IMG/VR virus record: IMGVR_UViG_3300036791_000940
Coordinates: 1-46,373 of that record
Strand: one strand, 5' to 3'
DNA length: 46,373 nt
Source: a virus
Shown: positions 5,179-41,352 of the stretch, piece by piece
How positions within the stretch are numbered: the first letter of the stretch is position 1
Layout: every line of letters begins with the position of its first letter
Notes under the pieces: generated by a model
Databases searched by the model: none
What the model saw: the letters and a program-made list of their open reading frames with translations, nothing else
Told to the model about the DNA's origin: nothing
Made by a program: the position numbers and the translations under genes

Positions 5179-5867
5179 TGGCCACAATGGATGATTGGCT
5201 GCGAAGTCTCATGCCCAACGTCGGCGCAAGCGCGCCCTACGGCGCATCAGGCTACCCAGACAATCTGCCGAATATGGCTTCCACGCCACCCGGCGGCGGA
5301 TTGATGGGCATGCAAGGCGCGACCCCTGGCGGCCCGTCAATGGGCTATCCGATGTTTTCGATCAGTGCACCGCAGCACAATTGGGGGCCACGACATGCAG
5401 GAGGCTCACCCTCGGGGCCGATCATTCCAGGGCCGCTATCAAATCCGCTAGGATCAAGCGTCACCGTGGACGCACAAAACCCGCCAGCGGGCCCCGTAGG
5501 CAATCCTGGGAACCTTCTCAGCGGGCCAGGCGGCGTCTCATCGTTTCCTGCTGCTACGTCCCCAATGGGCTATCCGGCCCAATCCGGCCCAGGCGCGTAT
5601 CCGATTCCAGGAGCTCCCCCATGGACAGAGGCAAACGCGCCAGCCGGGAACGCAAGCGCCCCGCCAAGTCCATCGTTGGGCTCAGCGAAAAAGGGGACGA
5701 TCACCCACGCGCCATTGCCACCACCACGCCCGAAAAGCCCGAACCTTGGCCGGTACCCAGCGCCTCCTCAAGACAACTCAGCATTTTCACTCGTTAACCC
5801 CTGGACCGGATCAGGCCAGCAGGTCACTGCCTTAGACTTCTCACGACTTGGAAGGAAGCAAACATGA
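5178..5867 (+). CDS. Pro/Gly-rich low-complexity protein
   Basis: 229 aa, dominated by Pro, Gly, Ser and Ala over residues 15-200, hence disordered. The ends are less repetitive: MATMDDWLRSLMPN and a C-terminal LVNPWTGSGQQVTALDF. The composition resembles the internal virion proteins of the late operon (19063-21182), so it may be an ejected or virion-associated protein; this is inference. Coupled at both ends: TAATG before, ATGA after. Confidence 0.6.
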   Translation: MATMDDWLRSLMPNVGASAPYGASGYPDNLPNMASTPPGGGLMGMQGATPGGPSMGYPMFSISAPQHNWGPRHAGGSPSGPIIPGPLSNPLGSSVTVDAQNPPAGPVGNPGNLLSGPGGVSSFPAATSPMGYPAQSGPGAYPIPGAPPWTEANAPAGNASAPPSPSLGSAKKGTITHAPLPPPRPKSPNLGRYPAPPQDNSAFSLVNPWTGSGQQVTALDFSRLGRKQT

Positions 5868-6151
5868 AAAAGATCATCCTCGCCGGCATTGCCGCAGTCC
5901 CTATGATCCTGGTTGCCAGCAGCGCAAAGGCGTTCATTGTGTTCGCGCCAGCGGCTTTCGCCGGCGTCGTTCTAGGCAGCATTGCCTTTGGAGCTCTGAC
6001 CACAGCCATATTTGGTCCCCACTGGATCGCACCATGGGCCGCGCCGTTCACCCCGGTCGCGCCAGTCGTCGAGCAGCCCGTCGTCGAAGAGCCCTACGTT
6101 GCGCCGCCGCGGCGCCATCATCACGTGGTCTATTACCATCAGGGGTATTGA
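5864..6151 (+). CDS. Exported small protein with Sec signal
   Basis: 95 aa. Residues 1-23 are a signal peptide (KK, hydrophobic core, AKA before Phe24). A second hydrophobic Ala/Gly stretch (about 29-50) may be membrane-embedded. The tail is Pro/Val/Glu-rich and ends RRHHHVVYYHQGY. AAGGAAG precedes the ATG, which overlaps the upstream stop. It is the first of a run of predicted exported proteins. Confidence 0.65.
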   Translation: MKKIILAGIAAVPMILVASSAKAFIVFAPAAFAGVVLGSIAFGALTTAIFGPHWIAPWAAPFTPVAPVVEQPVVEEPYVAPPRRHHHVVYYHQGY

Positions 6152-9413: not shown

Positions 9414-9474
9414 TTACGTTTCCTCCATTCATGCGGTTCAAGCGGCTTGGCCCGCACAGCCTGCACAGCCTGCA

Positions 9475-9900: not shown

Positions 9901-9974
9901 GATCCTCACCGTCTTACAATCTTTAGAAATGTGCGCTATGGTCCTCTGAGGCGCAACCCGAAAAGGAGTCCCAC

Positions 9975-10349: not shown

Positions 10350-10367
10350 ACGTAGATCTCATAAGAA

Positions 10368-10407
10368 AAAGCGCCGTTGAGAACTCTTGGCTCACCAACG
10401 GCGCTTT
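10368..10407. terminator. Bidirectional terminator hairpin
   Basis: AAAGCGCCGTTG and CAACGGCGCTTT form a perfect 12-bp stem around a 16-base loop, with A-rich DNA before and TTTAAA at the end, so it can work in both directions. It lies between the convergent genes ending at 10349 and 10439. Confidence 0.75.
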
Positions 10408-10411
10408 AAAG

Positions 10412-10440
10412 AGGGGGGCTAACCGGCCCCCCTTGATTTT
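10412..10440 (+). terminator. Second hairpin terminator, G/C-rich
   Basis: AGGGGGGC, a 6-base loop, GCCCCCCT, then TGATTTT. An 8-bp stem followed by a T-rich tail, terminating rightward transcription after the Pro/Gly-rich gene. Confidence 0.65.
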
Positions 10441-10744
10441 AGCGATTGGCGTGCCCGAATCCGGCTCCAATTCCAAAACCAGTCGAGGTAGCGATCCCAT
10501 TGCCGCGCGTGCCGGCATTGGTGAACGAACCTCCCGCGCCAAGAGCGGCAGCCGAAGCGCCTCTAGGCGTGCTCAGGCCAGCGCCTGCGCCAACCCCGAA
10601 GGAAGTCACGTTCGAGAACGAGCGAGCGCCCAAAGACGCGCCGATGCCCGTGCTAAAGCCCGCGCCGACACCGAAAGCATCGGCCGCAAACGCCGGAGCG
10701 CTCAAACCGAGCACAGCGACGCAGGCATAAATCATGCGTTTCAT
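10439..10744 (-). CDS. Exported Gly/Ala-rich protein
   Basis: 101 aa. A clear signal peptide (MKRMIYACVAVLGLSAPAFA) precedes a mature part rich in Gly, Ala and Ser with repeated FGVGAG/GIGAG units, likely disordered or fibrous. No domain recognised. It has a purine-rich AGGGTGAAAAT leader. It is one of three neighbouring leftward exported proteins. The 176 bp upstream (10745-10920) holds only a hairpin. Confidence 0.6.
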   Translation of the reverse strand: MKRMIYACVAVLGLSAPAFAADAFGVGAGFSTGIGASLGARSFSNVTSFGVGAGAGLSTPRGASAAALGAGGSFTNAGTRGNGIATSTGFGIGAGFGHANR

Positions 10745-10857
10745 ATTTTCACCCTTAGTCTGATAATGAGGCGGAGACCGCCGCCCCTCGGATTAGAATG
10801 CTGCGCCCCTGGGCTCCTGACTGCGCAGTGTCGCGATTGTGACCGGTCCCAGTTCTA

Positions 10858-10888
10858 GCAAGTCCTTCCACCCGGTTGTTGGACTTGC
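10858..10888 (-). terminator. Weak hairpin after the lipoprotein gene
   Basis: GCAAGTCC and GGACTTGC form an 8-bp stem around a 15-base loop, downstream of the leftward gene ending at 10921. No T-run follows, so termination is uncertain. Confidence 0.3.
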
Positions 10889-10920
10889 AAGGCCATGTCG
10901 CTGCATCCGGGAGGCCACAT

Positions 10921-11628
10921 TCAGTTGCGCGTCAGACACTCTCCGCTAGCAGCATGGGTCTGGTGCGGTGCGGTGCACGGGACAGAACGATAGCGGCGGC
11001 CGCGCTTGTCGTAAAAGAAGTCGCCATTGACCGGGGGTAGCGGAGCGGCCCCAGCCGTCACGTAGGCGGTCTGTTGGGGTTGCGGGGCATACTTCCCCAC
11101 GCGACACACAAAACCCATCGCAGCCATCGTCTGAGCCGTGTCGTCGTCGTAGCACATGCGTTGGCGCGCCACGCCGCCCATACCGAGCTGTTGCAGGACT
11201 AGTGCGTTAGCCCGCATGTCACAATTATGGTTCTGCCAGGGGAAAGCGAACGCGCCCCCGCCTCCAATTCCAGAACCTCCCAGAGAGATGTAGCTGTCAC
11301 AGGGCGATGAGTTTCCCACTGAAGGGGCGAACACGCTGGGGGCAATGCCCCTCTCATTGAAATTGCCGCTATTGTTCGTGAGAACGGTCTGGGTGCGATT
11401 GCCGCTGTTCGTCGCCCCGGCGTTCCGGCCATTGAAGCTTGTAGGAACCGTCACCTGTTGAGTTACGCTAGGCGCGAAGAAATTTCGGTTCGAGCTTGAA
11501 CTGAACGATTGGGCATTCGAGGAGGAGCGAGCCACGCCGATACCGGTTCCTATGCCAAGCGCCTGTTGGGCATTCGAGGAGCCGCACGCGGCCAAAACGA
11601 ATGCGATCGCGATAACACTGCTTTTCAT
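10921..11628 (-). CDS. Predicted lipoprotein, Ser/Asn/Gly-rich
   Basis: 235 aa. MKSSVIAIAFVLAACGSS contains a lipobox (LAAC, Cys15), so membrane anchoring through lipid is predicted. The mature part has a Ser/Asn-rich region, then NHNCDMRANALVLQQLGM with scattered cysteines, and a beta-like C terminus (NGDFFYDKRGRRYRSVPC). GGAAGGGAC lies before the ATG. It could act at the host surface; a spanin role is possible but the length and sequence do not point to it. Confidence 0.6.
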   Translation of the reverse strand: MKSSVIAIAFVLAACGSSNAQQALGIGTGIGVARSSSNAQSFSSSSNRNFFAPSVTQQVTVPTSFNGRNAGATNSGNRTQTVLTNNSGNFNERGIAPSVFAPSVGNSSPCDSYISLGGSGIGGGGAFAFPWQNHNCDMRANALVLQQLGMGGVARQRMCYDDDTAQTMAAMGFVCRVGKYAPQPQQTAYVTAGAAPLPPVNGDFFYDKRGRRYRSVPCTAPHQTHAASGECLTRN

Positions 11629-23796: not shown

Positions 23797-24035
23797 GTCG
23801 GAGTGCTCCCCAAAGGAACCGCCGTCACAGACAGCGCTCCGCCGCTGTTGACCGTCAGTTGGAAGGCGTGCTTCGGCGGTTTCTCATCTGAGGCCAGCAG
23901 TAGGATCTTCGAGACTGCCTGATCCGTCGTTACGGTCTTGAACAGCTCATGAGCCATCCAAGCCGAGAAGCGCTGGAGATACTCTCGCGTCTTGGGGTCC
24001 AGATCCTGCGGAACAGTCGGAGGCGCGATTGCCAT
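23793..24035 (-). CDS. Hypothetical small protein
   Basis: 80 aa: a helical N-terminal half (DPKTREYLQRFSAWMAHELF) and a beta-rich C-terminal half. Coupled on both sides. Likely a minor structural or assembly protein by position only. Confidence 0.6.
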   Translation of the reverse strand: MAIAPPTVPQDLDPKTREYLQRFSAWMAHELFKTVTTDQAVSKILLLASDEKPPKHAFQLTVNSGGALSVTAVPLGSTPT

Positions 24036-25594
24036 TACCGATCACCTCTCACCACGATGTCGACGAGATGCTGGCCCAGCGTGAACGGTACAATCTGGGG
24101 ACCGATGCATGAGATCTTCATTCGAATGTCCCGGCCAGTTACGCGCGCATCGACATAGCCGTCTTGCCTGATCGGAACTGGCGTGGTCCACACCTCAGGA
24201 TCTCCCTGAGAGCGCGTGCGCTGTGAGCTGAATTGAAACTGGACTTCGGCCGCTTGCGCCGCTTCGCGCAAATCCGGAATGACCTGCTTCAAAGTGACGA
24301 ACTTCGCGCCGTTCACCAGATTAAGGTCGAAGGTTTCCGCCCATGGCGGATCCGCGTTCCCATACACAGAACCGAGCTCATGTTCGAAGGCTACCGTCCC
24401 ATCCGCCATGATCGGCTGCTGCGTGTAGCTCGAAGTGACGCATGCGGACCGGGACATCTGGCCCTGCGACCACCACTGCTCCTTGTAATTGTAGATCGCG
24501 ACGCGGGTGTTGAAGAGCTGGCCTTTCTGTGGGAAGAACCACCACACTTCATTGAAATTTCCAACATGGCCAATGCAAGCCTGCTCGCGGGCGTTCGCAA
24601 CTTCGATGTCGTCGTCAATCCAAGTGCGGATCGTGCACGCAATCGGCGTGATGTTGACTCCATCGAATGAGAACATGCCCTGCTGGCTCATCCAGAGGAT
24701 CACATACGATGTCGAGGTCACTGAGGCCGGAGAGTATGGCGTGCAATCATCGGCGAGCTCTAGGTAGTCATGGATATATGGCAGACCGATATAGCGGGTC
24801 ACGTAGGCTTTCTTGGCGGTGAAAAAGAGCACGCCAAATCGTCCATTCTCGGCGCATATGATTGGCGATGCCGGCTCGATATCAAGGAAGCCAGCTTGTG
24901 AATCGACATTCGAGAAGTCCCACGCGTTGCGATCTTCCTCGTTGCACCACCCAAATCGTCTAGCCGACCCACCGTCCGGATTACCGTGGATGTCCGTCGT
25001 GCCGTCGTTGTACATGCCGTAAATGATTACGAAGCGCTCTTGCGTCACCACGAAGCAGCGCCCGGACGGCGATCCTGTGGTCTGAGTAAGCACCGTGCCA
25101 GTCGTGGCGCTCGGGTCCCATTCCAAGAGCCGCCCATCGACAGACGACATGATCAAGAGGATCTGGCCGAAGTTGTCGACACTCCAGCAATCGGGGATGC
25201 GATCAACGGCGAGAAAGACACTCCCGGCGCGAGGGTCGCCATAGGTGTCGTCACCGTAATTCAAGTCGCCATAACCACCCTGGGCTGGGAGGGCTGGCGG
25301 GGCCAGGCCTCCGGCCGGCGTGATCTCGACTAGCGTTCCCAACGTGTCGACATAGACATGCTGCTCACAGACATAGGCCACGTGGTACACGCCAGCCAAA
25401 TCATACCAGCCATGGATGCGTTTGCAGCGCGAGGCGAAAGTGTACGTGTACTGCGATTGACCGCCGACTGGCTGAAGCTCGCCTTCGACCCAGCGCATGA
25501 GGTTGACTTGTGCCCAGTTCGAGGAACGCATGCGTTTCGTCGGGTTGGCGACCACCCCTGGCGGAATCTCGATTGGGACGAATTTCGTGCTCAT
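24035..25594 (-). CDS. Tail/stabilisation beta-rich structural protein
   Basis: 519 aa. It begins with a segment common in podovirus tail proteins (WAQVNLMRWVEGELQPVGGQ), then beta-propeller-like blades (ILLIMSSVDGRLLEWDPS; WDFSNVDSQAGF). It resembles large head-to-tail or stabilisation proteins of SU10/P22-like phages. Exact role uncertain. Confidence 0.6.
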   Translation of the reverse strand: MSTKFVPIEIPPGVVANPTKRMRSSNWAQVNLMRWVEGELQPVGGQSQYTYTFASRCKRIHGWYDLAGVYHVAYVCEQHVYVDTLGTLVEITPAGGLAPPALPAQGGYGDLNYGDDTYGDPRAGSVFLAVDRIPDCWSVDNFGQILLIMSSVDGRLLEWDPSATTGTVLTQTTGSPSGRCFVVTQERFVIIYGMYNDGTTDIHGNPDGGSARRFGWCNEEDRNAWDFSNVDSQAGFLDIEPASPIICAENGRFGVLFFTAKKAYVTRYIGLPYIHDYLELADDCTPYSPASVTSTSYVILWMSQQGMFSFDGVNITPIACTIRTWIDDDIEVANAREQACIGHVGNFNEVWWFFPQKGQLFNTRVAIYNYKEQWWSQGQMSRSACVTSSYTQQPIMADGTVAFEHELGSVYGNADPPWAETFDLNLVNGAKFVTLKQVIPDLREAAQAAEVQFQFSSQRTRSQGDPEVWTTPVPIRQDGYVDARVTGRDIRMKISCIGPQIVPFTLGQHLVDIVVRGDR

Positions 25595-26379
25595 AGCAGT
25601 CGAATGATAAACCCCAAGACCATATACGGTTGTAGATTGTTGTGTGGCTGGCCGCCGCCATCGGCAGTCAAGGAGATACCGGTCGCCGCCCCGCCGATGG
25701 AAACGCCGCTCGCCGAGCCAACGATGCCGATGTTCGCATTCGCGCCTTGGATGCCGATGCCGGTCGTAGCCGATCCCGTGTTCCCTGATTGAAGCGAAAT
25801 GCCGCTACCCAGACCAATTCCGCTGCCTCCTGACACTGTATTGGTGAATGTGTGCGTATGTCCTGGATCGGAAACACCGTGCGCGTGCGGCGACTGACTG
25901 ATGTTATGCGTGTGGCCTGGATCAACGACGCCGTGCACGTGGCCAGGATCGTTAACGCCATGAACGTGCGTCGCCAATTCAGCGTTGGTGAGCGTATGAG
26001 TTGCCTCGCCGCCGATAGCCGATATTGGCTGGCCAGCGCCGAACCCAACCGGAACACGACCCCTCAGGTCCGGTAAATTAAATGTCGTGCTTCCGTCACC
26101 AGCGCCAAAGGCAGTGCCGAGGATGCCGAACAAGCTGGCAAAATCGGTACGGCTGATCACGTCGCCAGCGCACCACCACCAATTCGTCGGCGGAGTGACC
26201 CCTGGCCACATGATGATTTGACCAATGATGGTTCCGGCCGAGGCGATCGCGTCAGAGTTCGTCTTGACCTGCGCGTCAATGAGATCGAGGTCGGAGTTGA
26301 GCTTATCACCCCAAGTGGTCGGGCTGGCGTGAACCTCGGGCTTGACCCAGCTATAATTCTTGGTGATCGAGTCAGGCAT
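25591..26379 (-). CDS. Tail collar domain protein
   Basis: 262 aa. YSWVKPEVHASPTTWGDKLN, then GQIIMWPGVTPPTNWWWCAG, FNLPDLRGRVPVGFGAG and repeated DPGH(V/T)H units form a tail-collar domain as in T4 gp12 and the Phage Collar family. The C terminus is Gly/Ser/Ile-rich with FIIRLL at the end. Receptor or fibre component. The first ten residues resemble those of the 33789-34235 protein. Confidence 0.85.
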   Translation of the reverse strand: MPDSITKNYSWVKPEVHASPTTWGDKLNSDLDLIDAQVKTNSDAIASAGTIIGQIIMWPGVTPPTNWWWCAGDVISRTDFASLFGILGTAFGAGDGSTTFNLPDLRGRVPVGFGAGQPISAIGGEATHTLTNAELATHVHGVNDPGHVHGVVDPGHTHNISQSPHAHGVSDPGHTHTFTNTVSGGSGIGLGSGISLQSGNTGSATTGIGIQGANANIGIVGSASGVSIGGAATGISLTADGGGQPHNNLQPYMVLGFIIRLL

Positions 26380-26603: not shown

Positions 26604-28172
26604 TCACAACTCCGCATTCCTGGTCATACTCGCGATCGAATAGGCCTGTCCCTGAGCGGTCCCCGTGGCCGCACATTGAAGGGTGTCGGTGCCGATAATA
26701 CCGGTCACCAGATTGGAGGCGTTTAGGTAACTGATGTTGCCAAAAGTGATGGTCGGAACCGCTCTCATCTGCATTGGAAAAGAGGTCGTTGACCTAACGA
26801 GCTGACCAGCGCCGCCGGCATATCCACATGCAACGATCGTCGCGTCCGTGATGTTTTGATAATACCGGCGGCAAGCCGCCAATGTTAGGGGAAGTGAATG
26901 TAAATCAAAGGGCGTCGCGCGTGAGCCAAGCTCCAACTGGACATTCGAAAAAGCAATGTAGGCTCCGCTGGTCTGACAGGTGCTCGTTGAGCCATTTGCG
27001 CCAACGAAATTGGAGCTCGCCCATGCGTTCGGTGGTCCGCGTAGGGTTGATCCAGATCCAAGATCGAAATGAACGATTACCGATGCCGCATTACCGGCCG
27101 AGTACCAAACGCCGCCGCCTGTCTCCCCTGGAATGACAACGGTAATAGCCGTCCAGATGCCTGCTAGAAGCGAAAACTGGAATGGATATGAGCGAGTGCC
27201 GGCCGCATTCCCGATAGCGCCACCAAAGGTGCCGGCGATCGAGCTGAATGCCCAAAACGATAAACTCACTGTGGCCGCGCGTGCCGAACCCCATTGAAAA
27301 TCGGCGACCTGGGCGAATTCGATTCTTTGCATGATTTGAAAATAGTCAGTCGATCCCGGCGTCGTGTTGGCGGTGGATGTGAGCTGGATATAGCTGCCAA
27401 GCCCTCCTGGAAGCGGGGCATTCCAGCCGCCCTGTACTGAGGTAAAGCAGCTAGCCACCGTCGAGAAATAGAGCCACCGATCGCAAACAAATTGGCCGGT
27501 AATCGGCGTAATCGAGGCTCCGCTGTTCCACTGATCGATTAACATCGCTCCGTTAATGATCCGGTTTCGATGTTGCGCGGCATTGTTGGCGACGTAGGTT
27601 TGAGTCCAGGCTGTCGTGGCGATCTTGGTGGAGTTATCCGCGGCTGCTACCGTAGGCGCTTGTGGTGTGCCGGTGAGGCTCGGTGAGTTAATAGGGGCAT
27701 ACGAGGCCGCTACAAATTCGGTCGTGGCTAGAGTGGTCGAATTGTCCCCGGCGGTTGGAGTTGGCGCTGTGGGGGTTCCCGTGAACGCTGGAGAATTGAG
27801 CTGAGCGCCGCCGGCCGTAGAGATATCCGCAGTGGTCAAAGTCACCGCGCCCGTGCGGGTGTTGAAGCTGGTGACGCCAGATGAGGAGACCGCCGCGCTG
27901 ACAAAGGCCGTCGTAGCAATCGAGGTGTCGTTATCACCTGGCGCCGGTGTCGGAGCCTTAGGGTCGCCGGTGAACACCGGTGAGCTAAGAACCGCGCCAC
28001 CCGCATTTTGGACATCAGTTGTGGTGAGGGTGACCGCGCCGACGCGGGTGTTGAAGCTGGTGACGCCAGCCGCCGCCGTGGTTTCAGCGATCCGGGTCCA
28101 CTTCACGCCATCCCAGGACCAGTTGAAGTAGGTCTGTCCGACAGTTGGATTGGCTGGGAAATTAAGCGCCAT
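26604..28172 (-). CDS. Tail fibre protein with repeated N-terminal modules
   Basis: 522 aa. Two modules of SFNTRxGAVTLTT...AGG...SPxFTG are followed by units ending ATTxF(V)A, typical of short tail fibres. The C-terminal 330 residues form a separate beta-rich domain, opening with RNRIINGAMLIDQWNSGASI and containing a carbohydrate-binding-like core. Likely receptor binding. MALNFPANPTVGQTYFNWSW is the usual start of such fibres. Confidence 0.8.
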   Translation of the reverse strand: MALNFPANPTVGQTYFNWSWDGVKWTRIAETTAAAGVTSFNTRVGAVTLTTTDVQNAGGAVLSSPVFTGDPKAPTPAPGDNDTSIATTAFVSAAVSSSGVTSFNTRTGAVTLTTADISTAGGAQLNSPAFTGTPTAPTPTAGDNSTTLATTEFVAASYAPINSPSLTGTPQAPTVAAADNSTKIATTAWTQTYVANNAAQHRNRIINGAMLIDQWNSGASITPITGQFVCDRWLYFSTVASCFTSVQGGWNAPLPGGLGSYIQLTSTANTTPGSTDYFQIMQRIEFAQVADFQWGSARAATVSLSFWAFSSIAGTFGGAIGNAAGTRSYPFQFSLLAGIWTAITVVIPGETGGGVWYSAGNAASVIVHFDLGSGSTLRGPPNAWASSNFVGANGSTSTCQTSGAYIAFSNVQLELGSRATPFDLHSLPLTLAACRRYYQNITDATIVACGYAGGAGQLVRSTTSFPMQMRAVPTITFGNISYLNASNLVTGIIGTDTLQCAATGTAQGQAYSIASMTRNAEL

Positions 28173-28175
28173 GGC

Positions 28176-30545
28176 TCATTCGACCGCGTTCTCGGTGAAG
28201 ACGCCCCCGCCTTGTGTCGCAGATGGACCGCCGGTGAAGGTGAATGGGCTCGTGCCGTAAGTCATGGACGAAGCCCCGCCGAAATAGACGCCCCAGATCA
28301 GGTCTGGAACGGTCTTACGAGGCCAAGGTGTGCTGGTTGCGTTGTTGGCCCCGCTCACCGACGACATGAAATTCGCTTGGCCGTACAGTTCGGTCGGATC
28401 GGTGGTGTGAGAGCCCCCGGTATTGACGCCGGCAGCTTCCTCAACGACGGTCTTTTGGCTGCTCGCGCCGGTCGCAGTGCAAGTCACCGCAAAGCTGCCG
28501 GCATTGGTCCGGGTCACCGGGGCGGTGAAGATGTAGGACCATACCCCGGTCGCGCCGCCTTGAGTGTTCTGTTGGGTGTAGGTGTTGGTGCCAGAGGTCG
28601 CATTATCGGTGCATCCGACCGTAGCCGGAGGCGAGGACGAGCCATTGTTGACCGTGAAGGCGGCGATGATCCCATTTCCAACCGTTGGGCTTGTACTCAA
28701 GGTGGTTACACCGCCGACCGTCGTCGTTTTGGCTCCTTGAACGATCGATGGCGTACCGTTTGGAACGAGGGTCACCCCGAGAACGCTGACGTTGGTGTCC
28801 GATGTCGGCGAGAAGTTCACCTGCGGAGGGTAGGTCGTATTGATGGCGCAGGGCTCGTAGGCCGGGATGTTATTGGAGCAAAGTCCATTGCCCATGACGA
28901 CATTGTTGCCAAAGATGTACTTAACGTTCGGAAGCGAAGTGTACAGTAGGGGAGCATTCGTCGTGCTGGGCGTACCGCACGGAACCGACGCTGTCCCCGT
29001 CGCAATTCCGCAAGTATCGATGTAATTATTGGTGATGGTGACGTTGGACTGCGAATTGCTGCCTTGAACGAGACGGCTCAAAGGGAACGCATTAGCGTTC
29101 GGAGACCCGAAAGAAGCCTGTGTGATGTTGGTAATAAAGACACTATGGTCAACCACCTGGGTTTGCATGGTGGCTGGTGCATAGAAAGAGCCGCCAGCAG
29201 ACCCAGACGCTTGAGAGACCCATCTCTGGCTGACTCCGAAAGTTCCTGTTGATGTTGCTCCACCTGGTGGGAAGCTGGTGATTACTGGGGCAGGCCATGG
29301 AGAATTAGCCGATGTATTTCCGTTGGTGCCTCCGCCGAATTGGACCGTTCCAGTCCCTGTATAAACCCAATCACCGATTTGGGCAAAAGTAGCGGCAGTG
29401 GTCACATTGATTGACGCCTGTCCCTTTGTAAATGTAGCCGTAAAGTTGCTATCTTGAGCCTGAATATTCCCACATGGAATGCAGGTCGTTTGGCCTTGTG
29501 ACCCAGGCGGAACGATCCAGGTGTCGTACTGCTCGATGTGCGAAATCACGTTAGAACAAGAGCAATGTAAATCATCCCAGGTCGAACCCCAACCATCGCC
29601 ATGAATACCGGGTTGGTTGGTCGTATACATCGCAAGCGCGCCAAAATAATTGTACTCTAACAGACCGCTTTCCGGAGTGATGCATCGCCCAGGGCAAGTC
29701 TGGAAATAATTGTACTTAAAATGGGTGACAACAGCCATTTGAGCCGGCGTGGCGCCGGTGCCTTGGCTGGACGAAAAGAAGACCGCGGTGGTGCCGCCGT
29801 TGTCAAAGACCCCCGTGCTTCCTGTCGAAGAATTGTGGATTTTGAATGAGTCGTTGAAGAAATTTATGCCGCCGCTGCATCCACCAGCGAATACCGTAAT
29901 ACCAGTCAGAGGGGTCTTAGCTAGATCGAAATTGAAAATGCTGTCATGCAAAGTGCAATCTGCTGAAGCTCCAAGACTGATGGTGATGTCGGTGTTGGTG
30001 GAATTGCCTGCGGCCGTGAAGTCGAGTGGACCTAAACTGAATGCCCCGGTTACATTACAAGTGACCTTAAAGCTGGCGTAGGTGCAGCCTGTAGGCAGAT
30101 TGGCGCTGATCGTCGGGTCCGTTGCAGAGCCTGGTTGACCGAAGTTGCAGCTGTTGCCGCAGGACGGGCCAACCGGATAATCGATCCCGGCGACAGGCCA
30201 TGGTGGATGACAGACAGCTGAGGTTGGAGATCCAGCACAGCCTCCGGTCGTCGCATAGCTCTGCCCGCTCTTCTGGCCACTGCCAGCAATTTGAGAGCCA
30301 CCGGATATGTGAGGGAAAACATTGGTGTCTTGGAACGTATACGGACCAGCAGGAGGCGCGTTGGCGCAGCCAGTCGAGCCCGGCGGGTCGGTGAATCCAT
30401 TGCAAGTGCCAGAACCGCCGCCGCCTCCGCCAGATGTTCCGACAGTCGCCGCCCACCCTGGATCAATGCCCTGCGCCGAAGCCGGCGAAGCCAGGACAAG
30501 CAGGATCAAAAAACCAAGCAACCAACGCAGCATTGCACCTCTCAC
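28176..30545 (-). CDS. Large beta-helix protein with signal peptide in late operon
   Basis: 789 aa from GTG (overlapping the previous stop), or 785 from ATG at 30533. A signal peptide (LRWLLGFLILLVLASPASA) starts it. Asn/Gly/Ser-rich beta-helix turns follow, with many cysteines (CSCSNV, CIPCGN), suggesting an oxidised, exported domain. Probably polysaccharide-binding or degrading. A Sec signal in a structural operon is unusual. Confidence 0.65.
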   Translation of the reverse strand: MRGAMLRWLLGFLILLVLASPASAQGIDPGWAATVGTSGGGGGGSGTCNGFTDPPGSTGCANAPPAGPYTFQDTNVFPHISGGSQIAGSGQKSGQSYATTGGCAGSPTSAVCHPPWPVAGIDYPVGPSCGNSCNFGQPGSATDPTISANLPTGCTYASFKVTCNVTGAFSLGPLDFTAAGNSTNTDITISLGASADCTLHDSIFNFDLAKTPLTGITVFAGGCSGGINFFNDSFKIHNSSTGSTGVFDNGGTTAVFFSSSQGTGATPAQMAVVTHFKYNYFQTCPGRCITPESGLLEYNYFGALAMYTTNQPGIHGDGWGSTWDDLHCSCSNVISHIEQYDTWIVPPGSQGQTTCIPCGNIQAQDSNFTATFTKGQASINVTTAATFAQIGDWVYTGTGTVQFGGGTNGNTSANSPWPAPVITSFPPGGATSTGTFGVSQRWVSQASGSAGGSFYAPATMQTQVVDHSVFITNITQASFGSPNANAFPLSRLVQGSNSQSNVTITNNYIDTCGIATGTASVPCGTPSTTNAPLLYTSLPNVKYIFGNNVVMGNGLCSNNIPAYEPCAINTTYPPQVNFSPTSDTNVSVLGVTLVPNGTPSIVQGAKTTTVGGVTTLSTSPTVGNGIIAAFTVNNGSSSPPATVGCTDNATSGTNTYTQQNTQGGATGVWSYIFTAPVTRTNAGSFAVTCTATGASSQKTVVEEAAGVNTGGSHTTDPTELYGQANFMSSVSGANNATSTPWPRKTVPDLIWGVYFGGASSMTYGTSPFTFTGGPSATQGGGVFTENAVE

Positions 30546-32113
30546 GGGATCGAAGAGAAACTGAAGACAATGAACGGCCCATTGTTAGACCCAAGCTCCG
30601 TCCACGAGGCTCCAGACGTGGGCCAAGTGCCAAACGTGGTCGATGCTCTAAGTGCATTGGTAAACTGTGTATTCTTTAACATGTTGAATGTGCCGGAACC
30701 TCCAACCAACGCGCCCCACCATGCTCCGGAAGCCGTCGCCTCGTAGGTTACGGCCGTGTCGCCCACCTGGACGCAGGTCCAATAGACGGCAAGTCCGGAC
30801 AGGGAAATTGGAGACTGGAAGGACGGAGTCAGCACTCCTGTCGTCGTGGTGACGAATGGGGCCGTGCTGCCAATAACACTACCGGGACGATGAACGCCTG
30901 ACTGAAATTGGTCGCTCATGATCGCAACCTGCGCGGTGCCCAGTGGGGCTGTTCCGGTGGTTCCGGCATTCACGACACGAAAATTTATAGCCGATACGGT
31001 TCCTGAACCGGCGCTCGTCGCCGAGACGTTGTCCAGCCACCCAGGAGCGCAATAAGTGAACGACGTGGTTCCGGTGGCGCTGCCAGTAAGGTCATGGGGA
31101 CCTCTAAATTGAACAACGCCTCCAACCTGATAACCTGGCCCAGTTATCGCAGAACCACCTCCGCCGCCGCTGCTATTGCCTGAGACGATGCCGATCCATC
31201 CGGTATTGGCTGGGTTCAGCAGAGCGTACATAGACGCGCCGGGCACGAGGGTGATCGAGGTGCCGATCGTGCCGCCCGCGGCAATGTTTGAGCTATCAGT
31301 CGTTTGAACCGCTATGCTCGCGCCGCCGGTGCCATTGGTGTTGACGATTGAGACGCCGAAATTGGCGACTAAACCCGCGACCACCGGAAGCTTCACCGGG
31401 CCCGCGGCTACACCAAGCACCTTCCTACAATCCGCAGCGACAATCGTATAATTCGCCGCCACGGTATTGCTGACAGTCCCGGTCAGTAGGTTAATGGTCG
31501 AAGCGGTTTGCGAGGTCGAAGGGCAAGAGGTGGTGACGGTGACCGCCGGGCTGCTTGGAACCCAGTTGGGGCTGACGAAGGATAGAACTTGGTTCGCGCT
31601 CGGAGCCGTACTAGAAACCGGAACGCCTTGTAATTTGACAACTGTCGCAGTCGCCGAATTGCCGGTGACATCTCCGCCCATGGTAACTGACGAAGTGGTG
31701 CCGCCGCCGCCGCCGCTGGTCACCAAGATCCAATTGGTCCCGGTCCCGTCGCAGACGAACTGAGCCGTGCCGCGATTGGTATTGATCGGAATCGGGGTCG
31801 CCGCTCCGTTGATGGTGTTCGAGCCTGCCGGAGCGATGGAAATGTTGTTCGTCGCCGCATTGCCCTGACCGTCCGCGACGCCAATGCCAAGCCCATTCAC
31901 TGCCGCGCCGCAACCTGGAAGGGTTTGGGTCTTGGTGCCGGCCGCAGTGCTCTTCCAGACCAGCCACGCGCCATAATCGACGCCTGCGGCAGTGTCTGAC
32001 GTCGCGGTGCCGCCGATGATTCGGGGCGGAACTGGCCTCATCGCGGCAGATTGCGCCCATGCCAAATCCGGAATGAGCGCGAGCGCCGCGGCGAGAAGAA
32101 GGAGTTTGCGCAT
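30542..32113 (-). CDS. Fibre-like protein with signal peptide
   Basis: 523 aa. MRKLLLLAAALALIPDLAWA is a signal peptide. The mature protein begins with a beta-rich region, then SSVTMGGDVTGNSATATVVK, a module repeated in the next upstream fibre gene, and a C-terminal beta domain. The start overlaps the preceding stop (TAATG). It may be a surface-displayed or assembled fibre. Confidence 0.65.
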   Translation of the reverse strand: MRKLLLLAAALALIPDLAWAQSAAMRPVPPRIIGGTATSDTAAGVDYGAWLVWKSTAAGTKTQTLPGCGAAVNGLGIGVADGQGNAATNNISIAPAGSNTINGAATPIPINTNRGTAQFVCDGTGTNWILVTSGGGGGTTSSVTMGGDVTGNSATATVVKLQGVPVSSTAPSANQVLSFVSPNWVPSSPAVTVTTSCPSTSQTASTINLLTGTVSNTVAANYTIVAADCRKVLGVAAGPVKLPVVAGLVANFGVSIVNTNGTGGASIAVQTTDSSNIAAGGTIGTSITLVPGASMYALLNPANTGWIGIVSGNSSGGGGGSAITGPGYQVGGVVQFRGPHDLTGSATGTTSFTYCAPGWLDNVSATSAGSGTVSAINFRVVNAGTTGTAPLGTAQVAIMSDQFQSGVHRPGSVIGSTAPFVTTTTGVLTPSFQSPISLSGLAVYWTCVQVGDTAVTYEATASGAWWGALVGGSGTFNMLKNTQFTNALRASTTFGTWPTSGASWTELGSNNGPFIVFSFSSIP

Positions 32114-33792
32114 TATGGCACCGTGATTATGCGAGAGGACGAGAACCCCAGCAGCAAGGCTGTCGTGTTGGGCAATAGAGAGATGGGCGCATTTGCGGCT
32201 TGGCTGTTGATGGTGCCGCCGGTCGGCGGATAGATAGAGACGGTGTTGGGTGTCGAATTGCGAAGGAAGATCTTCGCCCCAGTCTGAAGGCCAGGCGGGT
32301 CCCATCTGACGCCGCCGCCACCAACTCCAGCTGCAATCTCGATAAAGCCACCCGTACCGCTAGTCGCTTGTGGAATGGAGTTCGCCCCAGCCTGGGTTGA
32401 GCCCGCCGATGAGACCGTGTTGAGCGGGTCCATACCGCTCTCGTATTCCCACTGGTCGACGGTCGAGTTCCACGCCACATAGCCCCATGGACTGGTAGTC
32501 GTAGGCCTTTGCGAACCCCCGGTGCCTATAGGCTGACCCATCAGCGATGCGATGACCGAGGCATTCGAGGGTCCGCTGACTTCGCCGGCCATGGTGACGG
32601 AGGTCACTGCGCCAGCCGGGGTCGCCGGAACCCAGTTTGTGCCGTTGAAAGTCAGTACCTGGGTGTTCGTCGGGGCAGTATTGGCGACTGGCACGCCCTG
32701 GAGCTTAGCGACGGTTGCGGCTGACGAGGACCCACTGACGTCTCCTCCCATAGTCACAGCCGTGGCCGGACTAGTCGGAACCCAGCTCGTGCCGTTGTAA
32801 GCGTAAAACTGATTGACCGTAGGCAGAGTCGTAGCGACCGCGATGCCCTGGATCGCCGTGACCTTTGAGGTCGCCGAATTTCCAGTAACGTCGCCGCCCA
32901 TGGTGACTGAAGTCACTGGCGGAGTGCTCGGAACGGCCGCGCCTACCCAGTTTGTGCCGTTGTAAGTCAAGACTTGGGTGTTCGATGGCGCGGTATTGGC
33001 GACTGGAATGCCCTGAAGCCTGGCCACGACCGCAGTCGTCGAATTGCCGGTGACATCTCCGCCCATGGTGACTGAGCTGACAGAGGCCGGCGAAGCTGGG
33101 GCCCAATTGGCTCCAGAGCTCGAATAGGTGAGGATCTGACCGTTGGTCGGCGCGGTGCCGCTGAGATTGACGCCTCGAAGAGCCTGGACGACTGAAGCCG
33201 CCGCGGTGCCGCCAACATCGCCGGTCAGGGTGATCGAACCCGGAGGCGAAGCCGAGCCTGCTGCACCTTGCGGAATGGTGAAATTCAGTGTGTAGTTCGG
33301 CGATGTGCCGGTGATGGTGACGTTGGCGTTGGTGCCGGCCGCACCCGTGGTGGTCGAACCGACGATGAGGTTGGGAGCAGGTCCGGTCGCCCCGACTGAG
33401 CCTGGAATGCCTTGCGGGATGGTGAAATTGAGCGAATAGGTCGGGCTATTGCCGGTGATGGTGACAGCCGCGCTCGTCCCTGCCGCACCCGTCGTCGTCG
33501 AGCCTACGTTCAAGTTCGGGGCCGGCCCGATCGCTCCATTAGCGCCCTGCGGAATCGTGAAGAACAGGGTGTAATTTGGAGCCGTGCCGCTCATCGTGAC
33601 GTTGGCTGGCGTGCCTGGCGTCCCAGTCGCCGTTGAGCCAACGGTCATATTTGCCGGCGGACCAGCGGGTCCTTGTGAGCCTCCAGCTTGGAGCGCCGAG
33701 ATTTCGGACTTTACGATCGAGAAGTTGTTCCGCACAGACGCCGTGGTCGGCGAGCCTGAAACGGGGACTGTTGGGTCGACGTTCGAGGTCAT
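32113..33792 (-). CDS. Collagen-like repetitive tail fibre
   Basis: 559 aa. N-terminal coiled or attachment part; then units of GxxGPAPNLxVGSTTTGAAG with NFTIPQG; then copies of SVTMGGDVTGNS...LQG(I/V)PVANTAP and NWVPA(T/S)P; a C-terminal beta domain follows. The repeats imply a trimeric fibre shaft. The ATG overlaps the upstream stop. Confidence 0.8.
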   Translation of the reverse strand: MTSNVDPTVPVSGSPTTASVRNNFSIVKSEISALQAGGSQGPAGPPANMTVGSTATGTPGTPANVTMSGTAPNYTLFFTIPQGANGAIGPAPNLNVGSTTTGAAGTSAAVTITGNSPTYSLNFTIPQGIPGSVGATGPAPNLIVGSTTTGAAGTNANVTITGTSPNYTLNFTIPQGAAGSASPPGSITLTGDVGGTAAASVVQALRGVNLSGTAPTNGQILTYSSSGANWAPASPASVSSVTMGGDVTGNSTTAVVARLQGIPVANTAPSNTQVLTYNGTNWVGAAVPSTPPVTSVTMGGDVTGNSATSKVTAIQGIAVATTLPTVNQFYAYNGTSWVPTSPATAVTMGGDVSGSSSAATVAKLQGVPVANTAPTNTQVLTFNGTNWVPATPAGAVTSVTMAGEVSGPSNASVIASLMGQPIGTGGSQRPTTTSPWGYVAWNSTVDQWEYESGMDPLNTVSSAGSTQAGANSIPQATSGTGGFIEIAAGVGGGGVRWDPPGLQTGAKIFLRNSTPNTVSIYPPTGGTINSQAANAPISLLPNTTALLLGFSSSRIITVP

Positions 33793-34235
33793 GATGTGAC
33801 ATCCCAATTAGAGGCGCCGCCATCCCAAATGGACGCGCCACCATCCCAGATAGAGCCGGCCGGCGGAGTGATCGGCACCGCGCCTCCACCAACCGCGTCC
33901 ACCCACGCCGAACTGGTCGTCGAAACGTACCAGATGTACAGATTACCGCCGTTGCTATCCCACCACAGATTGCCTGCTTTTGGGTTGGTGGGCGCCGTGG
34001 CCGAGATGGTGACGCTCGCTCCCCCTCCAGCGACGATCTGCCACAGACCGTTCTGGCGCGCGTACATGTTATTATCGATTGGCGCTTCAGAGACCTTGCC
34101 GTTGGCCAGCGTGGAGACGCTCGCGACCGTCGAATCGATGCCGTCGAGGTCCGTGTTGATCTGAGATCCCCACGCGTCCTCATCTCCACCCACCGTGGGC
34201 TTCAACCATCCGTAATTGACGGTCGGTGTCGACAT
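33789..34235 (-). CDS. Small tail fibre/attachment protein
   Basis: 148 aa. NYGWLKPTVGGDEDAWGSQI resembles the collar protein start and fits a fibre-anchor region. Then WDSNGGNLYIWYVSTTSSAW and repeats of IWDGGAS. Probably a fibre adaptor. Confidence 0.65.
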   Translation of the reverse strand: MSTPTVNYGWLKPTVGGDEDAWGSQINTDLDGIDSTVASVSTLANGKVSEAPIDNNMYARQNGLWQIVAGGGASVTISATAPTNPKAGNLWWDSNGGNLYIWYVSTTSSAWVDAVGGGAVPITPPAGSIWDGGASIWDGGASNWDVTS

Positions 34236-34516
34236 CAGGCCGCCTTCCTGAAGTTTCTGAAGTCCATGGATGGGTGAATCTTGGCCGGCATGACGACGTC
34301 AAAGCTGCATAGCGCCGATGGGGCCCATGATGGGTCTGGGCAGAGCTGCGATTTGACCCACCCAGATCCGGCGATCGGCTTGCCTGCCCCTTGACTATAG
34401 AGCTTCATGCCATACGAGCCGACGCCATAGGTCGAGGGCACGTAAGCCGGCAGAGGAGGCGCGGAATCAAACGGAACGACGACGTCCTTCGGTTGAGCCT
34501 TGAGCCTGATCTTCAC
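34235..34516 (-). CDS. Hypothetical structural-operon protein
   Basis: 93 aa, Pro- and Tyr-rich, no domain recognised. Coupled on both sides, between the adaptor and fibre genes, so probably a minor tail or connector protein. Confidence 0.6.
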   Translation of the reverse strand: MKIRLKAQPKDVVVPFDSAPPLPAYVPSTYGVGSYGMKLYSQGAGKPIAGSGWVKSQLCPDPSWAPSALCSFDVVMPAKIHPSMDFRNFRKAA

Positions 34517-35139
34517 CCGAAGCTCCGTATTCTGGTGCGAACGAGGCGTGCGCTGGAAGCCTTGGCGCGCATGTGCTCGGCATTCAGCTTGGTAATCATG
34601 TCCTCGACCAGCGCTTTGAGGCCGGCCGCTGTCACCTCCTCGCCGACCGCGTGCAAATCCGCATGCATCAGCGCCGCCATCAGGTACAAACTTGGATACT
34701 TGGTGTAGATCCAGGATGAAATTTGATCGGAGAAAACAGGAACTTCGCCGTAGTACACGAGTTTAAAGATAATACCGTTGACGCTATCCGGTGTACCCCC
34801 AAAATAGATTTGCCGGCCTTCGATGGTGTATGACCCGTAGGCCCACTTATCCGGCTTATTGTAGAACTCGGTCCGTGGCTTGTAGTAGATCGGCATAAAG
34901 CCATCGGCGGCGTTCGGGTTCTGGATCCGGACCATATCCATCTCCAGCCAGTCGTCGGGCAATGGCGCGCATCGCTTGATGATCGGAGCCTCGATGTTCT
35001 GGATCATTCGATCGACCCGGAGCTCGGCATTAAATTTCTGCTCGGCTTGTCGAATGAAGCTCGTGACGAGCTGATCACTCCAATCCTGGCGATTGGCCCA
35101 TTCAGCAATCTGCGCTTTGAGGTCGGAGAAATCAGTCAT
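34513..35139 (-). CDS. Phage adaptor (gp7-like) protein
   Basis: 208 aa. MTDFSDLKAQIAEWANRQDW, then SFIRQAEQKFNAELRVDRMI, LPDDWLEMDMVRI and LVYYGEVPVFSDQISSWIYT fit the portal-adjacent adaptor proteins of SU10/P22-like podoviruses. The ATG overlaps the previous stop; an apparent N-terminal extension upstream is a shadow. Confidence 0.8.
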   Translation of the reverse strand: MTDFSDLKAQIAEWANRQDWSDQLVTSFIRQAEQKFNAELRVDRMIQNIEAPIIKRCAPLPDDWLEMDMVRIQNPNAADGFMPIYYKPRTEFYNKPDKWAYGSYTIEGRQIYFGGTPDSVNGIIFKLVYYGEVPVFSDQISSWIYTKYPSLYLMAALMHADLHAVGEEVTAAGLKALVEDMITKLNAEHMRAKASSARLVRTRIRSFG

Positions 35140-35315
35140 ATCCGTCCCAGCAGCAGTAGAATCAGAAGAATGATCAGAATGATGCCGATCCCTCCGACCC
35201 CATAATAGCCAGCGCCATACCCAACCCCCCAGGGCGCTCCAAGACCAGGGCCTCCAATGCCTCCGAGAAGGATGAGGATGACGATAACCAGGAGGACCAA
35301 ACCGACCGTACTCAT
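35136..35315 (-). CDS. DUF3309-like small membrane protein
   Basis: 59 aa. Two hydrophobic segments (VGLVLLVIVILILLGGIGG and IGIILIILLILLLLGRI) flank a Gly/Tyr-rich loop, the arrangement of DUF3309. The family is common in bacteria; its function is unknown. In a phage late operon a holin-like role is conceivable. The start and stop overlap neighbours. Confidence 0.75.
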   Translation of the reverse strand: MSTVGLVLLVIVILILLGGIGGPGLGAPWGVGYGAGYYGVGGIGIILIILLILLLLGRI

Positions 35316-35548
35316 CACTTTCCCTCCGCCTGTTGGATCTTGGCCTGGACGGTGTCGCAATCATCCTCTGTGGAAACAAACTTACCGTTGGTCAGGCCGA
35401 CGACGCAGTGCACGTGCTCGGCTAATTGCACCACGCTCGGCCCGGTGATGACGGTTATCTCGAGTGGATTGACGTAGACCGTCTGGCCGCCAGCCCCGTT
35501 GAGCGCCACCATGGAGAGAGCGAACGCCCAGGGGTGGATCATAACCAA
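35315..35548 (-). CDS. Small exported or membrane-associated protein
   Basis: 77 aa. The N terminus (MVMIHPWAFALSMVALNGAG) could be a weak signal peptide, then VYVNPLEITVITGPSVVQLA. Two cysteines (HCVVGL, DDC) may pair. Lies between the adaptor region and capsid genes; function unknown. Confidence 0.55.
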   Translation of the reverse strand: MVMIHPWAFALSMVALNGAGGQTVYVNPLEITVITGPSVVQLAEHVHCVVGLTNGKFVSTEDDCDTVQAKIQQAEGK

Positions 35549-38146: not shown

Positions 38147-38381
38147 GGGCCCTCCGCCGATAGTGGTAATCGTTCATGAGGATTTGCAATCGAGCGGTGA
38201 TGGCCTCCAGAGCCTTGATCCGCTCGATGAGCTTAAGCTTTCTGGCGTCATCGGTCTGATCCAGTAGAATCTCATTCGACCATTCGGCTTGCAGCGCTGC
38301 GGTCGCGAACTGATAGGCTGGGTCACTCTTGAGGTCCCTGGCCTGCTCGGCGCGCTCGAAGAGCTTGGAGATGTCATTCAT
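38139..38381 (-). CDS. Small protein between portal and scaffold
   Basis: 80 aa, helical and charged (MNDISKLFERAEQARDLKSD, LIERIKALEAITARLQILM). A short conserved gene often stands here in podovirus packaging modules. Function unknown. Overlaps both neighbours. Confidence 0.6.
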   Translation of the reverse strand: MNDISKLFERAEQARDLKSDPAYQFATAALQAEWSNEILLDQTDDARKLKLIERIKALEAITARLQILMNDYHYRRRAHA

Positions 38382-40705
38382 TTATTCCCCCCTTGGCCTT
38401 GTCCAGGAGGCGGCCTCATGGCGGCTGTAGCGAGCGCGGTCTCGGCTTGCTGTTGGCCGGCCTCACGCTTCTGGTCGATCTCGGCTGCCGAGGTGGCGGC
38501 GTCGAGTTGCATCTTCCTCTGCTGCATTGCCGCGTCGAGATGAGCCTTGTGCACGTCGACGGCGAGCTTGTGGGCTTCGAGATCGTTATCGGTTGGGTTC
38601 TGCGACGGCGCGCCAGCCTTCATCCGCTCGACATCGATCTTTTGCTGCTCGTAATCAGCCTTCTGGTGCAACGCCGTGTAGCGGAACTGATCGTCCTGCT
38701 GCTGCTTTTGAGACTTGAGCTGTTGCTCGGCGATGGCTTTGGCGGTGTCGGCTTTGACTTTCTCGTACTGCGCCTTGGCGGCAAGCGTCATTGCGTCGGG
38801 CTCCTTCGGCTGCGCGGCCATCTGCTGGAGCACTTGCGGATCGATCGGCTTGAAGTACCGGCCTGGGTTCTTGATGTTGGCCAGCGCCAATAGGTCGGTC
38901 AGGGAATTCATGTATTCGACCGGGCTCACCATCGGGTTGGTTGGCCCGAACTGCTGCATGATCATTTCCTGCTTGGTGATGATCTGCTGCAAGGTGCCGT
39001 ACCGGACCATGTCCGAGCCCTTGCCGAGGGTGGAATTCACCTCCACGCCCATCGACGCATCGAATGAGCCTGTGTCGACGTCGGTCCAACTGCCGTTGAT
39101 GCGGAGCGTTCGGCGCTGGTTGGGGGCTTCGGAGATCTCGTTATAGAGGCCTGTGAACAGGTCCCTGAACCCGGTCTCGGCAAGCACGCGCGCGATCAGC
39201 TCGATCCGCTCCTGCTGCCCGTTGATGACGGCCTCGACCCCAATTTGAGTGCTGGATTGGAGCGCCTTGGGATCGAGGCCCTTTGCCGCATCGGACAGGC
39301 CCGTACGACGCTGCAACTGATCATTGAGCATTTCCAAGACCGGCATAGCCTGTTGGCCGGCGAATGGGATCTGAACGAAGCTCACCGCGGCGCGCGGGTC
39401 ACCCCGGGTCCGGATCACGGCGCCAATCTCATCGTTCATGGCGTCGTCGACGTTGGTGGTCAGCTCGTTCATGACCGTTTTCGGATTGATGCTCTCGGCC
39501 AGACTGTCGAGGACACCGCGCCACATGTTGGTCTTTATTTTTTGGATGTCTTCGGTGTAGTCCGCGAGGCTGTCTCCAACGATCGTGTGGCTCCGAGGAT
39601 CGACGCCAAATACGGCGAACCGTATACGGTTAGCGGGCTCGTCGTGGACGATCTGAGCCGTTTCACCCATGGTGCAGATGTATCGAAGCTCTGCCGTGCC
39701 ATCACCGTCTTTGTCGACTCTGATGTAGAATTCACCATATTGAACTCCATCGCCGACCCGAGTGGAGATATTGCGCCCCGGATTGCGGAGTTGGCTCTCC
39801 ATCGTGAATTCGTTGACCATCTGCCCTTGGAGGTATTCGAGGCAGAGTTCGCGGTCGTAACCCATGGCGGTCAGGTCTTCGACGGCCACCAGGCGTTGAT
39901 GCCCGACAATCCTCGAGGTCTGGAAGCTCCGGGCGTATCGGTCGAGACGCATCTCCTCCGGCGGCACACCAGCGACCTTGATCAGGGGTTTATCGACCTC
40001 ATAGGTGAACATGACCTGGTCGTAAGTCTGCGTGCGCTTATCGAGGTCGCCGAGATGAACGATCTTGGCCGTCTGATCCTGACCCATGATCACATTGATC
40101 TGGCCGGCCGGCAGGTTGACGTAGGTCTTGGTCCGCACCTCCCGGTGATCGTCCGTCCACCATTTGACAAAGCCTGTCTTGACCGTCATCGCGTCCTTAA
40201 ACGCGCCGTGTAGAATCAAGAAACCCGGATTGTCCTGCCAGAACACGTAATTAATGTAATTGGTTTGTTGTTCGGCAGTCTGGACGTCGGCTTCGGTTCT
40301 GGGGACGAGATTGACCACATTCTCGCTGGCCCCAAACAGGCGAATGAGCGATGGCATGATCAGCATGACCGCGTCGCGCACGTCTGAGGACACATACTGC
40401 GACTTGTACGCGCTCTCCTCATCCCCGCCGAGAATCTGCTCGTAGGTCGCGGTTGGATCCTGGATGATTTGAGTGTCGGAGTAGGGCGTGCCATCCGGGT
40501 TTAAGCTCGGCAGCATCCCGTAATAATATTTCTGGGCGGTGTCGCGCGCCGGCGCTAGGACTGAGCCTTCGTAATCCTTGGAGTCTTTGATCATCGCTTG
40601 GATGAACGGCTCGTAGCTCTCCGGATCGGACGGGTCATAACCGGAGCGGGAGTAGCCCTGGCGATCGCCCTCTTTGAATGTGTCGAATAGCTGTTCGACT
40701 GCCAT
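38378..40705 (-). CDS. Portal protein
   Basis: 775 aa. YVSSDVRDAVMLIMPSLIRL (about 105-124), then FGASENVVNLVPRTEADV, and a stem/wing with VKTGFVKWWTDDHREVRT are hallmarks of large podovirus portals. The C-terminal helical barrel is Gln/Lys-rich. Forms the dodecameric DNA channel. Start overlaps the endolysin stop (TGATG). Confidence 0.9.
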   Translation of the reverse strand: MAVEQLFDTFKEGDRQGYSRSGYDPSDPESYEPFIQAMIKDSKDYEGSVLAPARDTAQKYYYGMLPSLNPDGTPYSDTQIIQDPTATYEQILGGDEESAYKSQYVSSDVRDAVMLIMPSLIRLFGASENVVNLVPRTEADVQTAEQQTNYINYVFWQDNPGFLILHGAFKDAMTVKTGFVKWWTDDHREVRTKTYVNLPAGQINVIMGQDQTAKIVHLGDLDKRTQTYDQVMFTYEVDKPLIKVAGVPPEEMRLDRYARSFQTSRIVGHQRLVAVEDLTAMGYDRELCLEYLQGQMVNEFTMESQLRNPGRNISTRVGDGVQYGEFYIRVDKDGDGTAELRYICTMGETAQIVHDEPANRIRFAVFGVDPRSHTIVGDSLADYTEDIQKIKTNMWRGVLDSLAESINPKTVMNELTTNVDDAMNDEIGAVIRTRGDPRAAVSFVQIPFAGQQAMPVLEMLNDQLQRRTGLSDAAKGLDPKALQSSTQIGVEAVINGQQERIELIARVLAETGFRDLFTGLYNEISEAPNQRRTLRINGSWTDVDTGSFDASMGVEVNSTLGKGSDMVRYGTLQQIITKQEMIMQQFGPTNPMVSPVEYMNSLTDLLALANIKNPGRYFKPIDPQVLQQMAAQPKEPDAMTLAAKAQYEKVKADTAKAIAEQQLKSQKQQQDDQFRYTALHQKADYEQQKIDVERMKAGAPSQNPTDNDLEAHKLAVDVHKAHLDAAMQQRKMQLDAATSAAEIDQKREAGQQQAETALATAAMRPPPGQGQGGNK

Positions 40706-41352
40706 CAGCGCCGAACCTTACGCTTGCGTTTTGGCTGCTGATAAGCCGCCACCACAGCGTCGAGGAACTTATCATAATAGGTGCAAATCAAATACCCGAT
40801 GGTGCGATGGGTGTCCCAAGACGGATAAATGTGCTTGTCGCCGTTGATGATCTCGCGGGCTTCGTACGGATCCTCAACCGTTTTGGAGAAGTACCTGGGC
40901 AGGGTTTCAGGCCCCTTGTCGTCCGACCGGAACCATCCTTCATGCATGCCTAGATACATGATCTTGGCGGCTATGATCGGATCGAGGGCCTTCGAAGGAT
41001 GCTGAACGAGATCGTCCTCGCCGGTCAGCTCTAGTTCATCAGTCCCGCGTTGATAATTCTCTTTCCAGGTCAGTTGCACGTAGCCGCGGCCGTAATAAGC
41101 CTGTTGGGTTTCTGGATCGATGGCGCCGTAGGGCTGGCCTGACCCTTTGCCGTACTCCTCGATTGGCCACATTTGCTGTGATGTCTCGTGGTAGGCAGTG
41201 GCCAGCATGTAGGCGAGGCGACGGAGATCGGTCGCTTTGAGCATGTCCCAAACGAGGAGAATATCCTCCTGTCCATCGACCTGCTGTTGGGTCAGGTTGC
41301 CGGAGAACAGGCTCGCGCGCACCTTGTCGAAATAAATCTTCTTATTGAACAA
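40705..41352 (-). CDS. Endolysin, GH19 chitinase-like
   Basis: 215 aa. RRLAYMLATAYHETSQQMWP with Glu56, IEEYGKGSG with Glu65/66, and YYGRGYVQLTWKENY (86-100) form the GH19/lysozyme-like core. The C terminus is basic. It would cut peptidoglycan at lysis. No signal peptide is seen, so a holin or similar would be needed; the only candidates nearby are small membrane proteins. Confidence 0.85.
   Translation of the reverse strand: MFNKKIYFDKVRASLFSGNLTQQQVDGQEDILLVWDMLKATDLRRLAYMLATAYHETSQQMWPIEEYGKGSGQPYGAIDPETQQAYYGRGYVQLTWKENYQRGTDELELTGEDDLVQHPSKALDPIIAAKIMYLGMHEGWFRSDDKGPETLPRYFSKTVEDPYEAREIINGDKHIYPSWDTHRTIGYLICTYYDKFLDAVVAAYQQPKRKRKVRR

Follow-up and report, generated by a model that had tools for sequence, protein, structure and literature searches.

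Why should two adjacent genes in the virion operon of a phage encode proteins that begin with a secretion signal, when ordinary virion parts are assembled in the cytoplasm? The question is raised by proteins A and B of a soil phage, of which the window (the whole stretch of DNA analysed, 46,373 bases) is an entire IMG/VR record. Its genes mark this phage as a podovirus whose portal is of the SU10 type. The minus strand encodes the portal, the major capsid protein, an adaptor-type protein, tail fibres, a collar protein and an ejection-type protein, and the plus strand carries the recombination genes ERF, YqaJ and NinB. The features discussed here are listed in Table 1.

Table 1. Position of proteins A and B, their predicted signal peptides and other features of the window (SP-less, without signal peptide).
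Feature	Position	Strand	Remarks
Signal-bearing gene	5864..6151	+	Outside virion operon; short, His/Pro-rich tail at end
Signal-bearing protein, 533 aa	6341..7942	+	Outside virion operon; 14 mature Cys; weaker signal score, 8.8
Signal-bearing protein, 410 aa	7930..9162	+	Outside virion operon; 6 mature Cys; leader like that of its neighbour (QDYY..T..I); weaker score, 9.7
Signal-bearing gene	10439..10744	-	Outside virion operon
Signal-bearing gene	10921..11628	-	Outside virion operon; lipobox-like LAAC
Virion structural protein phrog_3287	24035..25594	-	Border of the variable slot, opposite the adaptor gene
SP-less tail fibre, downstream of B	26604..28172	-	PHROG tail fibre families
Protein B, 785 aa	28176..30533	-	Sec signal peptide and Cys-rich mature part, 22 Cys in 765 aa
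Signal peptide of B, MLRWLLGFLILLVLASPASA^QG (ASA)	30474..30533	-	Predicted by n/h/c score
Protein A, 523 aa	30542..32113	-	Signal peptide (residues 1-20) and fibre-like mature part
Signal peptide of A, MRKLLLLAAALALIPDLAWA^QS (AWA)	32054..32113	-	Predicted by n/h/c score
SP-less fibre before A	32113..33807	-	3-4 repeats homologous to the repeat of A; 1 Cys in 564 aa
Head-tail adaptor-type protein (phrog_2941)	34513..35379	-	One border of the variable slot
SU10-type portal	38378..40705	-	Pfam PF23899, E 8e-151; query for collecting relatives
Endolysin-type gene	40705..41352		Separate from A and B

Both proteins are encoded by minus-strand open reading frames, and the Sec signals that the first-pass annotation had placed at their N termini are indeed present. 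Protein A starts at ATG 32113, within a TAATG at which the stop codon of the upstream fibre gene overlaps its start. The most likely start of B is ATG 30533, which lies a few bases past the stop codon of A and is preceded by a GAGAGG ribosome site; an alternative start, GTG 30545, overlaps that stop codon. Each protein shows the hallmarks of a type I Sec signal, i.e., a positive n-region (two charges in A, one in B), a hydrophobic core of 11 residues, an AxA-type cleavage site (AWA^QS in A, ASA^QG in B) and a true start codon. On a home-made score of the n-, h- and c-regions, which is not SignalP, A reaches 13.5 and B 13.56. As background, the same data set supplied 10,921 start codons located inside long ORFs, of which 10 scored at least 10.5 and not one came up to 13. 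When the first 60 residues were shuffled, the score was matched in 2 of 20,000 trials for A and in none of 20,000 for B. The mature part of A contains six cysteines, an even number.

The same annotation had called both proteins fibre/beta-helix proteins. The fibre part holds for A, one fibre repeat of which is common to the signal-less fibre encoded upstream (E = 8e-34), and the beta-helix part found no match for B in PHROG, Pfam, NCBIfam or PDB, in which neither a catalytic beta-helix family nor fibre repeats were recognised. Searches of phages, viral contigs and the collected loci with tblastn, patterns and phmmer yielded no homologue of B and, beyond the fibre repeat, no sequence relative of A. 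No catalytic family was recognised in either protein, neither matches the Lom family or has a PEP-CTERM sorting signal, and the PDB sequence search gave no meaningful match. AlphaFold2 run without an alignment on mature A and B gave a mean pLDDT of 33 and 35, respectively, with no usable fold. Since A and B lack homologues, the case for them is built on their own signals, cysteine content and position. These features, together with translational coupling, would also link them to a wider class of signal-bearing proteins found in related phages.

Relatives were collected with the portal (80) and with the phrog_3287-type structural protein (nine more), and the interval between the adaptor gene and the phrog_3287 gene was defined as the slot. 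This slot is complete in 17 contigs including the window, four of which (the window, L012, L090 and L092) contain signal-bearing genes, the remainder having signal-less fibres only. Signal-bearing genes are also found in the incomplete slots of L011, L014 and L065. Within the slot they form runs of one to three, mostly coupled by 4-base overlaps. Profile searches retrieved further contigs of the same lineage (L102, L122-L126, L128 and L129) as well as L099, L101, L103, L115 and L120; of these, L122-L126, L128 and L129 conserve the signal-bearing arrangement, and L099, L101 and L103 have signal-bearing genes although their records hold no match to this portal. The long signal-bearing relatives consist of a short conserved N-domain followed by exchangeable fibre-tip domains, which sequence reading and weak PHROG matches describe as LamG-type, SPRY-type, fibre repeats or spike-like. 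The SPRY-type tip resembles the tail fibre of Burkholderia phage AH2. Short proteins made up mostly of the shared N-domain often lie beside the long ones (L014, L090, L092, L099 and L101). In another lineage, roughly eight fibre-like genes with signals stand in a row (L103 1354-11257 and L106 11165-12601), and the last gene of the L103 run (8459-11257) starts with a twin-arginine-like signal, TRRNLGRLF.

The tail modules of the cultured relatives OH, phiM5 and ctyzp037 contain no convincing signals. In the comparable region of phiM5, lysis genes stand alongside virion genes, and in L099 and L101 the signal-bearing genes directly follow a gene read from its sequence as endolysin-like. The lysis cassette of phiM5 and this endolysin-like neighbour indicate that a protein need not be part of the virion just because its gene lies in the operon. 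Searching genome contigs with the portal or LamG profile gave no link to a host; that the host is Gram-negative is an assumption based on cultured relatives, among them phages of Ochrobactrum and Sinorhizobium. In two further relatives (G005:C1:17485-19884 and G006:C1:37571-40030) the portal gives two matches, covering residues 1-220 and 226-762, within a single frame that stays open over 896-949 residues, a pattern suggestive of an in-frame insertion in the portal gene.

Several properties of the signal-bearing proteins argue that the signals are functional. In homologous pairs, which partly overlap, 36 protein-level changes within the hydrophobic core include one to a polar or charged residue versus about 8 expected. 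Mature tail-slot proteins contain 1.61% cysteine when they carry a signal versus 0.54% when they do not (Mann-Whitney P 3e-6, with rows that are partly related). The number of mature cysteines is even in 29 of 30 signal-bearing proteins; L103 4039-5862 has nine, and the signal-less phrog_3287 protein of the window has 11. The LamG-type domain, so named from its sequence, has two aligned cysteines in 10 of 10 signal-bearing copies versus one of nine signal-less copies (Fisher 1.2e-4), although in these comparisons homologous rows are not independent and the P values are overstated and thus indicative only. The lone signal-less LamG copy with the cysteine pair is that of L104. In L088, which belongs to the same lineage and has a LamG-type domain in the same slot but no signal, the pair is replaced by Ser and Asp. 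Moreover, an N-terminal module with the motif WTDLGxGP occurs with a signal in L099, L101, L115 and L120 and without one in L117-L119 (e.g., L118 25-270), and thus the export signal seems to have been gained or lost on the same type of gene. Because the core is conserved, the proteins are rich in cysteine with even counts and the LamG cysteine pair tracks the signal, export appears to be functional, and A and B themselves are very probably exported. The suspicion that they are something other than ordinary virion parts assembled in the cytoplasm is thus upheld.

What they do once exported is less certain than export itself, and this applies to the whole of their extracellular role. The reading we favour, with moderate confidence, is that A and B are disulphide-bonded fibre-type proteins which are produced late, held in the periplasm, released by lysis and act on surface glycans. 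Both would be translated from the tail operon, at starts that adjoin or overlap the stop codon of the preceding gene, and their position in this operon points to late expression. The host Sec pathway would export them and the 20-residue signal would be removed. Signal grammar, even cysteine counts and the association of cysteine with the signal suggest that the mature proteins fold with disulphides in the oxidising periplasm, where they may stay until phage lysis and then leave with the progeny. Fibre-tip modules such as the LamG-type, SPRY-type and spike-like ones normally bind or cut glycans, and the presence of lectin- and spike-like modules in relatives with a signal suggests that released A and B may attach to, or cleave, glycans on surfaces or outside cells. 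The likely gain would be that exopolysaccharide is cleared, or that receptors on debris and neighbouring cells are blocked so that progeny are not wasted. The earlier proposal of secreted depolymerases or decoys is thus sustained as regards secretion; the enzymatic or decoy role assigned to them is conjectural, and no catalytic family is recognised in A or B. The domains of the relatives fit both binding and cleavage of glycans and do not choose between depolymerase and decoy.

Alternatively, A and B could sit in the periplasm or on the cell surface and keep other phages from superinfecting or injecting, as other exported exclusion proteins do, which we consider rather unlikely. Late expression coupled to the tail genes would be poor timing for this role, and known phage exclusion proteins are small, whereas those considered here have 500-800 aa and contain fibre repeats. 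In its favour are the export of A and B and the example of lambda Lom, which shows that exported non-virion genes can occupy such a position (PMC12309495). A role in lysogenic conversion, with the phage being temperate, was also considered and is less likely, as the annotated genes of the window, for which a subset of ORFs was searched, include no integrase.

It is also unlikely, if conceivable, that exported fibres join the virion from outside, being matured by disulphide formation in the periplasm and docking only at lysis as late-added receptor-binding proteins. The fibre repeat of A, and those read in L103 2082-3857 and L106 11165-11974, would fit such a function, as would the location of the genes in the tail module and the short N-domain proteins that accompany the long ones, as in a multi-subunit fibre. 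That nearly all fibre genes of the phage represented by L103 bear signals points the same way and counts against the reading of A and B as released glycan-directed proteins, as it would be odd if none of these fibres ended up on the virion. However, no precedent for docking from outside was found in the open-licence literature searched, and the signal-less fibre and collar genes of the same operon could suffice for a normal tail. The more general proposal, that some tailed phages add Sec-exported receptor-binding fibres with periplasmic disulphides at lysis and that a module with a signal in one phage can be swapped for its signal-less form in a related one, is distinctly doubtful.

That the proteins are not exported at all, the hydrophobic N terminus being retained in the particle or serving as a membrane anchor, is improbable. 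Although the position in the virion operon and the fibre repeat of A would agree with retention, the grammar of the signal is kept while its sequence changes, the AxA^Q sites are canonical, cysteine counts are even and the cysteine pair tracks the signal. Chance hydrophobic N termini or misplaced start codons are very improbable, for although the scorer is home-made and the frame of A is open upstream as far as ATG 32305, no internal start scores as high and stop/start overlaps put the starts exactly before the signals in a layout that recurs in many contigs.

Signal-bearing genes also exist in the window outside the virion operon, where five were noted (Table 1). Two of them, starting at 6341 and 7930, lie in tandem and have similar leaders, QDYY[AS]QTS. 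In relatives, a separate secreted protein combines a signal with a C-terminal PEP-CTERM motif, PEPxxWA (L020 1512-2237 and L012 4520-5080), and a PEP-CTERM-type secreted protein is encoded near the portal in L022-L033, L049, L056, L063 and L077. Both proteins tested pass the cut-off of Pfam PF07589, and that of L020 also passes NCBIfam NF035944. This protein is a candidate phage-encoded exosortase substrate; no clear precedent for phage PEP-CTERM proteins was found in the open-licence literature searched.

When a gene of a virion operon encodes a fibre domain, its product is routinely labelled a tail fibre. A recurring subset of such proteins, present in several metagenomic phage lineages, is very probably exported, and this changes the prediction of receptor-binding proteins. 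It also points to a little-studied phage strategy in which soluble fibre modules would be secreted around lysis. Because signal and cysteines are present or absent together in homologous modules, the idea is directly testable.

Among known systems, the podoviral tail fibre or tailspike gp19 of Sinorhizobium phage phiM5 lies in the same region of the operon as A and B, and A shares its repeat with a signal-less fibre; in contrast to A and B, the tail genes of phiM5 lack convincing signals. The N terminus of the virion-detected fibre (NYGWTKP..GG..DTWG..LN.DLD.ID type), a virion-attachment-type sequence found in phiM5 gp19 and in the window genes at 33789-34235 and 25591-26379, is absent from A and B, both of which begin with a signal instead. 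Other phage proteins do carry signals for export through the host Sec system before lysis, e.g., Lys44 of fOg44, the SAR endolysins of P1 and 21, and RI of T4 (PMC6116005); unlike these endolysins, no lytic domain was found in A or B. The closest positional parallel is lambda Lom, a signal-bearing outer-membrane protein whose gene lies between the tail-spike and side-fibre genes (PMC12309495). Like A and B, it is the product of a tail-region gene with a Sec signal, and it goes to the host envelope and not to the virion; unlike A and B, which are fibre-like or rich in cysteine, it is a beta-barrel membrane protein. No direct precedent was found in the open-licence literature searched for exported tail fibres, or for fibre modules of tail operons that bear both a signal and the marks of disulphides. 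Exported phage proteins are thus already known, and what appears to be new is that such modules recur as a class.
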